From NCBI GenBank assembly GCA_019116745.1, contig DXBC01000013.1:1-35651 (forward strand): DNA of 35,651 nt, given 5' to 3'. A program made the position numbers and the translations under genes. Source of the DNA: Candidatus Lachnoclostridium stercorigallinarum. GTDB taxonomy: Bacteria > Bacillota > Clostridia > Lachnospirales > Lachnospiraceae. Numbering within the stretch: the stretch's first letter is position 1; each line of letters opens with the position of its first letter. The notes under the pieces were generated by a model that did not search any database, had not been told where the DNA came from, and was given only the letters and a program-made list of their open reading frames with translations. This document shows, piece after piece, positions 5,110 through 30,812 of the stretch.

Positions 5110-5220
5110 GTTTTCTCCTCCTGAGTTTAGTGTACGGAGACAGCGTATGCCCCTGCGGCCTGCGCTGTCCTGTCGTCAAAAAGTGTCCGCCGGAGGCGGA
5201 CTGTTCTGCTGAATGAAAAA

Positions 5221-5281
5221 GGTCAGATGTAAGCCGGCACCAGGGATAGGAATGGTGCAGGTTTACATCTGGTCTTTTTTT
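5221..5281. terminator. Bidirectional intrinsic-terminator-like hairpin
   Basis: CAGATGTAAGCCGGCACCA (5224-5242) pairs with TGGTGCAGGTTTACATCTG (5253-5271) with one mismatch and one wobble; T7 follows on the plus strand and the A-run before it gives a T-tract on the minus strand. Confidence 0.6.
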
Positions 5282-5374: not shown

Positions 5375-5502
5375 CGCAGTGCGCGCTCGACTCCGCTTCG
5401 CTCCGTCTCGCTCACGGGCTTCGCCCTATGCAGGAAGACGGATGCCCGGACGCTTTTGTGCAAGCACAACGCTGCCGGGCATCCGTCTTCCTGCGCACTG
5501 CT
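5375..5502. repeat. Nested inverted repeat (long cruciform/hairpin-forming element)
   Basis: CAGGAAGACGGATGCCCGG...CCGGGCATCCGTCTTCCTG, perfect 19-bp arms (about 5431-5449 and 5474-5492), inner TTGTGC-AA-GCACAA, and outer GCAGTGCGC...GCGCACTGC arms. Confidence 0.75.
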
Positions 5503-5592: not shown

Positions 5593-5732
5593 GCGAATCG
5601 GATAGGGGAAGTTCCTTCCCCTATCCGATTCGCGATACCACAGGAAGCTCACAGCAGAGCTGTTCGCTGTCCGCTGCCCGGCAAATGTCCGCCCATGCAG
5701 GCATGGCTGCCGCTTGCCGGGCCTATCGCGCA
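5593..5732 (+). repeat. Dispersed structured intergenic repeat, copy 1
   Basis: Perfect 19-bp hairpin GCGAATCGGATAGGGGAAG-TTC-CTTCCCCTATCCGATTCGC (5593-5633), then a block (5616-5732) 113/117 identical to 29535-29651. Confidence 0.9.
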
Positions 5733-5868
5733 AACCTCCGTGCCCGCTAACGCGGACACCACGAACCATGAAAGCCCTCGGACCGCTCCGTGCTGCGCAC
5801 TCATGCGATCCGGTCTGCAGGCAGCCCGTTTCGCCTCTGCTTTGAAACCGGGCTTTCAGAGCAAAAAA

Positions 5869-5896
5869 GGGAGAACAGCCCATTAACCGTTCTCCC
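5869..5896 (-). terminator. Intrinsic terminator of pfkA
   Basis: Minus strand GGGAGAAC-(12 nt)-GTTCTCCC followed by TTTTTT, 17 nt beyond the pfkA stop. Confidence 0.85.
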
Positions 5897-5912
5897 TCTG
5901 TTTTCCGGATTG

Positions 5913-6887
5913 TTATCTCACGAGAATTCTGCTGATCTCGTACTCATCTTCCGGAATTTCTTTCTTCATCGCCAGAGCTTCCTGGATATCAAAATCTACG
6001 AAAGCGCCGCCCTTGTAGGCCACTACGCGGTTGCTCTTTCCTTCGGCCAGAAGGTCTACCGCCTTGGCGCCCATGATGGAAGCGTACATTCTGTCCTTGC
6101 AGGTAGGGGTACCGCCTCTCTGCATGTGTCCCAGGATGGTTGCTCTCGTCTCAATGCCGGTGGCCGCCTCGATCCTCTTGGCCATGGATGCGGAATGTCC
6201 GATTCCCTCTGCATTGATGATAATGTGATGCTTTTTGCCTCTCTTGCGGTTGTCAATGATGCGGTTAATCAGCATCTGCTCGTCTCCGTCGTATTTCTCC
6301 GGAAGCAGGATGTCCTCCGCTCCGTTGGCGATTCCGCACCAGAGAGCGATATATCCGGCGTTGCGGCCCATAACCTCTACAATGCTGCAGCGCTCGTGGG
6401 AGGTAGAGGTGTCGCGGATCCGGTCGATAGCTTCCATGGCCGTATTCACAGCGGTATCAAAGCCAATGGTATAGTCCGTACATGCGATGTCCAGGTCAAT
6501 GGTTCCGGGAAGTCCGATGGTGTTGATGCCCAGAGCGGACAGCTTTCCCGCTCCCTGGAAAGATCCGTCGCCGCCGATGACAACGATTCCGTCGATGCCG
6601 TGCTTGCGGCAGATCTCCGCGCCCTTCTGCTGACCCTCAGCCGTGGTGAACTCCTGACATCTTGCCGTGTACAGAATAGTACCGCCGCGGTTGATGATAT
6701 CGGCTACGCTCAGGCCGTCCATATCCACGATCTCCTCCTGAAGCAGGCCGGCATAGCCTCTCATGATTCCCTTTACCTTTAATCCTTTATGAATTGCGGT
6801 TCTGACTACTGCCCGGATTGCTGCATTCATGCCCGGTGCATCACCGCCGCTTGTCAATACACCAATCGTTTTCACTTCTTTCGCCAT
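5913..6887 (-). CDS. pfkA: 6-phosphofructokinase
   Basis: MAKEVKTIGVLTSGGDAPGMNAAIRAVVR..., GGDGSF nucleotide-binding motif, PGTIDLDI active-site region, HMQRGG. The ORF track starts upstream at 6926; the MAKEV start at 6887 is preferred. Confidence 0.96.
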   Translation of the reverse strand: MAKEVKTIGVLTSGGDAPGMNAAIRAVVRTAIHKGLKVKGIMRGYAGLLQEEIVDMDGLSVADIINRGGTILYTARCQEFTTAEGQQKGAEICRKHGIDGIVVIGGDGSFQGAGKLSALGINTIGLPGTIDLDIACTDYTIGFDTAVNTAMEAIDRIRDTSTSHERCSIVEVMGRNAGYIALWCGIANGAEDILLPEKYDGDEQMLINRIIDNRKRGKKHHIIINAEGIGHSASMAKRIEAATGIETRATILGHMQRGGTPTCKDRMYASIMGAKAVDLLAEGKSNRVVAYKGGAFVDFDIQEALAMKKEIPEDEYEISRILVR

Positions 6888-6938
6888 AGTCAATCCCTCC
6901 ATATTGTTCTTATTTATATACATCAATCAAAAGTTATT

Positions 6939-29501: not shown

Positions 29502-29518
29502 ACCGAACTGTCACGATC

Positions 29519-29651
29519 GGATAGAGAAAGCTTCTTCCCCTATCCGATTCGCGATACCACAGGCAGCTCACAGCAGAGCTGTTCGCTGTCCGTTGCCCGG
29601 CAAATGTCCGCCCATGCAGGCATGGCGGCCGCTTGCCGGGCGTATCGCGCA
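29519..29651 (+). repeat. Dispersed structured intergenic repeat, copy 2
   Basis: 29535-29651 differs from 5616-5732 at 4 of 117 positions by direct reading; preceded by an imperfect version of the leading hairpin. Confidence 0.9.
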
Positions 29652-29655
29652 GAAA

Positions 29656-29695
29656 GGAGCGCGTCAGCCGATTTTGCAGCTGACACGCTCCTTTT
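29656..29695 (+). terminator. Intrinsic terminator downstream of the DUF1846 gene and repeat copy 2
   Basis: GGAGCGCGTCAGC...GCTGACACGCTCC (one mismatch) followed by TTTT. Confidence 0.75.
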
Positions 29696-29717: not shown

Positions 29718-30812
29718 TTATCTCCACTCTTCTTCCAGAAATTTTACAATATCGATGGCCTTCGGCGGACACCCCTTCAGGCTCTTCTGAAACCCGCAGG
29801 TACACTGACCCACTCCCAGCTCTCCCGTCTTTCCGCGGTATGCCTGGCCGATACAGATCTTCTCCTTCTTCCCTCTGAGAGCACCGGCATCATTCAGCCG
29901 GTCCAGAGCGTAAATCAGAGAGCCGTAGCAGGCGCTGCAGGCGTCCTTCGCTTCCGCGTACTTTGCCAGGTTTTCCACCCGCCGGGTCATACGGAATTTT
30001 CCCTTTCCCACCGTATCCTCGTTCAGATAGATGAAATTGGCGTGTTCCGTATCCGTGCTCCCCACTCCCAGCTGTTCCGCCATGCGGATGTAGGGAACGT
30101 CGTCCACGGAATAGCCCATGCAGTCGCACACATAGCTGTCGCAGAGCACCGGATCCTTAAATCCCAGCACCCGGTTCATCACCACAGGATTTCCCCCCTC
30201 CTCAAAATCCAGGTCGCCGCAGATATTGTCCACCAGAATAAAGCTGTTGGGAGCGATGGTATTCAGATGGGCAATGGGCTTGTGGAGGCCCATGGTGTGA
30301 AAACGGCGCTTTTCCTTGTTTGGGATAATGCCTTTGTTATTTTTCAGGGCACAGGTGATGATGGTCTGACAGTGCCCCTTTAATACCGGCATATTGATCA
30401 TGTAATCCACCTCGGCCGCCCGGTCGCAGACGGCAATTTTCATGCCTTTCGCGTCGTACTCCCGGTAGCTGTCCTTCTGAAGGTCCACCAGCTCCACCCC
30501 GTACTTTTTTGCCACATCCCGGTAGCCGGCAGCCGAAAATGCCGCCTGGGTAGAATCTCCCACCCAGGATCCCTCCATAATGGCCACATTTCTGAAGCCG
30601 TGCTCTCTCAGATATTCCAGGGCGCCGTCCAGAAGCTCCCTGTGAGTCGTTCCCCCGGCAGAAGGATCCCTTGCCGTCACCAGGTTTGGCTTAAGAGCCA
30701 CCCGTTTTTCCCTGTCCCCGATGTCTCCGGCCACGTCGGCCCGCTCTAGAACCTTTTTAGCCATTTCCCTGTAATCTGTGCCGTGTATAATAATAATATC
30801 GTTTTTCTCCAT
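29718..30812 (-). CDS. DUF362 domain-containing protein
   Basis: 364 aa; KPNLVTARDPSAGGTTHRELLDGALEYLREHGFRNVAIMEGSWVGD...INMPVLKGHCQTIITCALKNNKGIIPNKEKRRFHTMGLHKPIAHLN typical of DUF362; C-terminal Cys-rich segment. Confidence 0.88.
   Translation of the reverse strand: MEKNDIIIIHGTDYREMAKKVLERADVAGDIGDREKRVALKPNLVTARDPSAGGTTHRELLDGALEYLREHGFRNVAIMEGSWVGDSTQAAFSAAGYRDVAKKYGVELVDLQKDSYREYDAKGMKIAVCDRAAEVDYMINMPVLKGHCQTIITCALKNNKGIIPNKEKRRFHTMGLHKPIAHLNTIAPNSFILVDNICGDLDFEEGGNPVVMNRVLGFKDPVLCDSYVCDCMGYSVDDVPYIRMAEQLGVGSTDTEHANFIYLNEDTVGKGKFRMTRRVENLAKYAEAKDACSACYGSLIYALDRLNDAGALRGKKEKICIGQAYRGKTGELGVGQCTCGFQKSLKGCPPKAIDIVKFLEEEWR

Follow-up and report, generated by a model that had tools for sequence, protein, structure and literature searches.

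A Structured Repeat Family Fused to Intrinsic Terminators in Lachnospiraceae, Most Likely a Mobile Element

Results

Two Copies of the Repeat behind Minus-Strand Genes

The window, a stretch of 35,651 nt from Candidatus Lachnoclostridium stercorigallinarum, contains two intergenic copies of a repeat of ~135 bp. The features around them all lie on the minus strand, on which the element is read here (strand E):

5597..5731, minus strand: element copy 1; on strand E it begins GCGCGATAGGCCCGG at 5731 and has its CCGAT end at 5597, with the palindrome reaching out to 5593
5593..5633, minus strand: terminal hairpin P4 at the distal end of copy 1, with perfect 19-bp arms 5593-5611/5615-5633
5632..5729, minus strand: cloverleaf of copy 1, from covariation on alignment A1 and the fold
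5632-5637/5724-5729, minus strand: closing stem P1 of copy 1
about 5676-5722, minus strand: arm P2 of copy 1
about 5645-5669, minus strand: arm P3 of copy 1, with a tandem GA internal loop
5733..5865, minus strand: unit B, between the terminator and copy 1, a degenerate Clostridiales-1 RNA with a 3' tail hairpin at 5733-5770
5866..5899, minus strand: pfkA intrinsic terminator, from the terminator scan
5913-6926, minus strand: pfkA gene (Pfam PF00365)
29516..29650, minus strand: element copy 2; on strand E it begins GCGCGATACGCCCGG at 29650 and has its CCGAT end at 29516
29655..29692, minus strand: terminator hairpin by copy 2, 14-bp arms AGGAGCGCGTCAGC/GCTGACACGCTCCT, bidirectional, read from the sequence
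29718-30812, minus strand: DUF362 gene (Pfam)

Alignment of the two copies bore out the first-pass annotation of this DNA, which had reported a ~135-bp repeat in two copies: 5616-5732 and 29535-29651 are collinear, with mismatches at 4 of 117 positions (copy 1/copy 2: 5645/29564, 5674/29593, 5708/29627, and 5723/29642). The 19-bp leading hairpin that it described as perfect in copy 1 was likewise confirmed, and this P4 end is the part most often lost in other copies. Two further long intergenic inverted repeats lie just upstream of copy 1, at 5430-5494 and 5216-5279, with 27-nt arms that are 89% and 85% complementary.

Copy 1 is separated from the pfkA terminator by 133 nt holding unit B, and copy 2 abuts the minus-strand T-run of the 29655-29692 hairpin, a short run (TTTC). 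This hairpin, which a simple terminator scanner passed over because its loop is 10 nt, probably also serves the plus-strand DUF1846 gene. Both copies follow the terminators of minus-strand genes (pfkA and DUF362) in the same relative orientation. The two had previously been assigned opposite gene contexts, and the argument over a fixed 3'-UTR role that was built on this contrast is wrong, since both copies lie downstream of minus-strand genes.

Fold and Covariation

The element folds into a closing stem, a long arm P2, an arm P3, and a terminal hairpin P4, a cloverleaf followed by a hairpin. Folds of the window copies were far more stable than those of dinucleotide shuffles (z = -6.4 and -8.2). 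In a 31-copy alignment from many species, 95% of the cells are paired in this fold, and the covariance check proposed earlier yielded 31 cells with two-sided changes, affecting 8 pairs, against 9.6 +/- 2.7 in shuffled alignments. Covariation for one fold, the criterion for a structured noncoding RNA, was therefore found. The tandem GA/GA internal loop of P3 is kept in 28 and 30 of the 31 copies, respectively.

Non-Watson-Crick cells on strand E comprise 93 G-T against 44 A-C, counts that come from related sequences and are indicative only. The excess of G-T suggests that strand E is the folding strand, as RNA or single-stranded DNA; the repeat had first been written as the reverse complement of this strand.

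Copy Number, Hosts, and Database Matches

A BLAST search of the assembly that contains the window (G000, a draft of 2.5 Mb in 191 contigs, 81% complete) returned 47 matches, corresponding to ~30 places with full or partial copies after removal of reverse-strand hairpin self-matches; ~16 of these are near full length. Several copies lie where contigs stop, the usual effect of a repeat that interrupts assembly. Further copies were detected by BLAST in 8 of 60 relatives, chiefly Candidatus Lachnoclostridium avicola (G003) and Ca. L. stercoravium (G006), with fewer in Ca. L. pullistercoris (G001), G011, and Blautia sp. An81 (G036). A scan of GTDB genomes with the first 22 nt of the element alone, with no T demanded so as to avoid bias, gave 66 loci, all in Lachnospiraceae or in records labelled just as higher taxa, and the element was found in over 20 further species of Lachnospiraceae. 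In Blautia, Mediterraneibacter, and relatives, the cloverleaf unit also occurs as a tandem duplication (L156, L160, L163, L173, and others).

Rfam assigned no family to the window at its gathering score, and the element itself, for which an Rfam search had been suggested, gave weak sub-gathering hits only (for example, Cupriavidus-1 at 31 bits against 45.5). A description of the repeat was absent from the open-access literature searched. Phage and plasmid sequences gave no match indicating carriage; the single IMG/VR hit, preceded by no terminator, was rejected as a chance match.

Fusion to Intrinsic Terminators

Nearly every copy, read on strand E, starts right after a terminator T-tract (..TTTTT|GYGCGATAMGCCCGGCAAGCGG), and nearly all 66 scan loci display this fusion to a hairpin and T-tract. 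A terminator was scored when the last 9 bases held at least 4 T and a hairpin was at least as stable as -9 kcal/mol; of the 74 non-redundant copies, 69 passed, compared with 17 of 195 random positions drawn from the same loci, coding DNA included. Three of the five exceptions are accounted for by a neighboring unit B or by a tandem second copy. The element had been regarded as free-standing; instead, its copies are fused to terminator T-tracts, and the repeats constitute a new, covariation-supported family fused to terminators.

The terminators used belong to unrelated genes and include a T-box attenuator before pheS. At L203 and L209, a T-box leader supplies the terminator to which the element is joined, and L209 lies upstream of pheS, so the element could influence attenuation of the pheS operon there. 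The earlier suggestion of a standalone structured RNA is less favored: strict fusion to unrelated terminators speaks for target-specific insertion.

Orthologous Sites and Junctions

The earlier call had been to look for empty sites in sister strains; in sister species, the terminator is often present at orthologous sites without the element. The DUF1846 site carries the element at full length in G000 and shortened in G003, and it is element-free in six congeners (G001, G002, G004, G005, G007, and G008); a terminator-like hairpin remains at the site in most of these. Element-free orthologues were also found in G003 for the L018 and L021 sites and in G000 for the L033 site of G003. A Blautia operon site exists in tandem, 50-nt, and 25-nt forms, with element-free orthologues in more distant species. 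The site orthologous to L271 could be a deleted copy instead of an empty site. As these comparisons are made between species, at 80-90% identity, the pre-insertion sequences are approximate.

Target-site duplication was assessed in 42 full-length copies by comparing the 14-mers on either side. The shared word averaged 3.29, against 3.25 +/- 0.13 with shuffled partners; the flanks share no more than chance, which indicates that the target is not duplicated. In 35 of the 38 full-length copies that end in ..GAT, the following base is a pyrimidine. The ends of the element, TGCGCGATAC and ..CTATCCGAT, read directly from the copies, are not inverted copies of each other.

Of the ~30 places in G000, ~25 retain the T-proximal end and about half retain the hairpin end. 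Loss of the distal end can follow insertion, as illustrated by the DUF1846 site in G000 and G003 and by the forms of the Blautia site. Because this loss is seen in orthologous pairs, truncation is no proof of retrotransposition, and TPRT, as read from one-sided truncation, is weakened. The description of the repeat as dispersed, structured, and probably mobile holds, given the ~30 places in G000, presence and absence at orthologous sites, and covariation. Leaving the mechanism aside, the terminator-fused family is most likely mobile.

Search for a Mobilizing Enzyme

A check for a RAYT-type transposase had been proposed. The Y1/RAYT domain (PF01797) was absent from G000 (81% complete), G001, G006, and G008, and degenerate in G003; it was intact only in G004 and G005, both without copies by BLAST. 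Y1/RAYT was rejected as the mobilizer, being absent from most copy-bearing congeners and not tracking copy number. The label REP/MITE-like fits loosely: the repeat is structured and dispersed, but no target-site duplication was found, and the Y1/RAYT family is absent from G000, G001, G006, and G008.

No reverse transcriptase (RT) was found in G000, within its 81% completeness, or in G006, and RT was set aside as the current mobilizer, as its presence shows no simple correlation with copies in the genus. Group II introns were likewise absent from the 81%-complete G000; most relatives with copies have them, as do many other relatives. An autonomous long version was considered and rejected, no split element being found within 8-kb loci. 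Overall, the genomes searched yielded no autonomous partner or mobilizing enzyme.

The Clostridiales-1 Neighbor

Clostridiales-1 (RF01699) is an orphan motif from a 2010 screen (PMC2864571). It matches 21 times in G000 and 62 times in G005. The element itself gives no gathering-score match to RF01699; only the adjacent unit B matches, at 5771-5856 with 33.1 bits, under the 48-bit cut-off, while intact relatives score up to 100 bits (L024). Clostridiales-1 differs from the element in sequence and structure, but many element copies in G000 have it alongside. In both G000 and G003, Clostridiales-1 occupies the same kind of site, beginning at terminator T-tracts, and an element copy, whole or shortened, often comes next. 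The variant at L214-L232 (G000 and G003) lacks MITE ends and starts TTTTT-ACTGTGAAAGCCCGG at T-tracts.

In G005, Clostridiales-1 copies (L080, L090, L095, L100, and L105) are ~203 nt long, with ends GATACCAGGGTCAAAAGGT..ACCTTTTGACCCCAACATC. All five G005 copies bounded by these end patterns are flanked by exact target duplications of 7-8 bp (TTTTTGG, TTTTATA, ATTCTCAT, TTTCTTT, and TAACCTT), which identifies them as MITEs. The one G006 copy bounded by the end patterns (L086) has no exact duplication.

Discussion

To our knowledge, strict landing at intrinsic terminators has been described mainly for group IIC introns, and strict terminator-edge fusion is not known for the pneumococcal BOX, RUP, and SPRITE repeats. 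We consider it probable that the repeat is a non-autonomous structured mobile element of Lachnospiraceae, ~135 nt long, that inserts at the downstream edge of intrinsic terminators. Insertion would take place between the final T of the tract and a pyrimidine, leaving the target unduplicated. A trans-acting enzyme may recognize the terminator hairpin and T-tract as DNA, as in group IIC introns. After insertion, deletions and tandem duplications would erode the distal hairpin end, with the T-tract junction left in place. Landing beyond the stop signal would spare genes and would thereby account for the number of copies tolerated.

Intrinsic terminators are the insertion sites of group IIC introns (PMC4424553). 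Like the element, these introns are located directly downstream of a hairpin and T-tract, without target duplication, and the best reading is that target choice in the element works like theirs. All four resident group II introns with a readable 5' end follow a hairpin and T-rich run (L071, L074, L304, and L308, of the Rfam D1D4-3 class). The element ends, GYGCG..CCTATCCGAT, are close to the group II intron pattern GUGYG..AY, and ..CCTATCCGAT resembles the resident intron ends ..CCTACTCGAT and ..CCTACCCGAT, resemblances that are post hoc. When the intron boundaries were examined, the 3' AU held, and the 5' end was GUGCG in some copies and GCGCG in others. In contrast to group IIC introns, the element carries no reverse transcriptase, is only 135 nt long, and has C at position 2 in many copies; its 5' part beyond the start has no similarity to the resident introns. 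Element copies gave no match to RF00029 (domain V) or to D1-D4, and the A equivalent to the bulged branch point is paired in P4. With domain V absent and this A paired, the element is not classed as a group II intron. It is unlikely that the element descends from a group IIC-type intron as a core-less relic, having kept terminator targeting and both intron-like ends (GUGCG..CCUAUCCGAU), and is mobilized in trans by resident group II intron machinery. If true, this would make it a 'SINE of group II introns' in bacteria, for which the abbreviated group III introns of Euglena chloroplasts offer a broad parallel.

Other small repeats share some of these traits. REP/BIME sequences with RAYT and palindromes derived from IS200/IS605 are, like the element, structured, extragenic, and multicopy near gene ends; the element differs in its fixed terminator fusion, as opposed to free spacing, and in that most copy-bearing congeners have no Y1. 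BOX, RUP, and SPRITE (PMC3049150) are, like the element, small interspersed structured repeats of Firmicutes.

The element could instead be a functional module selected at terminators and spread by recombination, a read-through RNA or DNA roadblock that aids termination or shields 3' ends, with the T-proximal part as the functional part. Preferential retention of that part in G000, together with the RNA-like tandem GA loop and covariation, agrees with this idea. We nevertheless regard it as rather unlikely, for the element is missing from most of the orthologous terminators in the genus, the neighboring genes are unrelated, a copy also follows a T-box attenuator, and the element would sit past the normal transcript end. 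Retrotransposition of an RNA in the orientation first written, with its 3' end at the T-tract priming RT in a SINE/LINE-like manner and truncation at the far end, appears about as doubtful as the intron relic. The fixed T-tract junction and one-sided truncation fit it, as does a TTTTT duplication at the truncated L021 site relative to its empty allele; against it stand the post-insertion origin of truncation at the DUF1846 and Blautia sites, folding of the other strand, and the failure to find an RT in the 81%-complete G000 or in G006.

Movement as single-stranded DNA by a Y1 transposase (IS200/IS605 or RAYT), with terminal hairpins as recognition sites, would account for hairpins near both ends, ends that are not inverted, an unduplicated target, and a fixed T-rich target. 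The distribution of PF01797, absent from G000, G001, G006, and G008 and intact only in G004 and G005, which have no copies by BLAST, makes this quite improbable. The size, copy number, and intergenic location would also suit an ordinary MITE of a DDE transposon, and the neighboring Clostridiales-1 family in G005 is such a MITE; the lack of target duplication in 42 full-length copies largely refutes this, no inverted terminal repeats were seen in the element, and the target specificity is of another kind, leaving this origin very improbable.

On the favored reading of a mobile element directed to terminators, Clostridiales-1, an orphan Rfam family, gains a mobile-DNA context, and caution is advised in structured-RNA screens of gut metagenomes, which pick up such elements. 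The site preference shared with group IIC introns suggests an unrecognized mobilization route. A small structured element with this preference across gut Lachnospiraceae further suggests that terminator edges may be a general safe harbor for mobile DNA.
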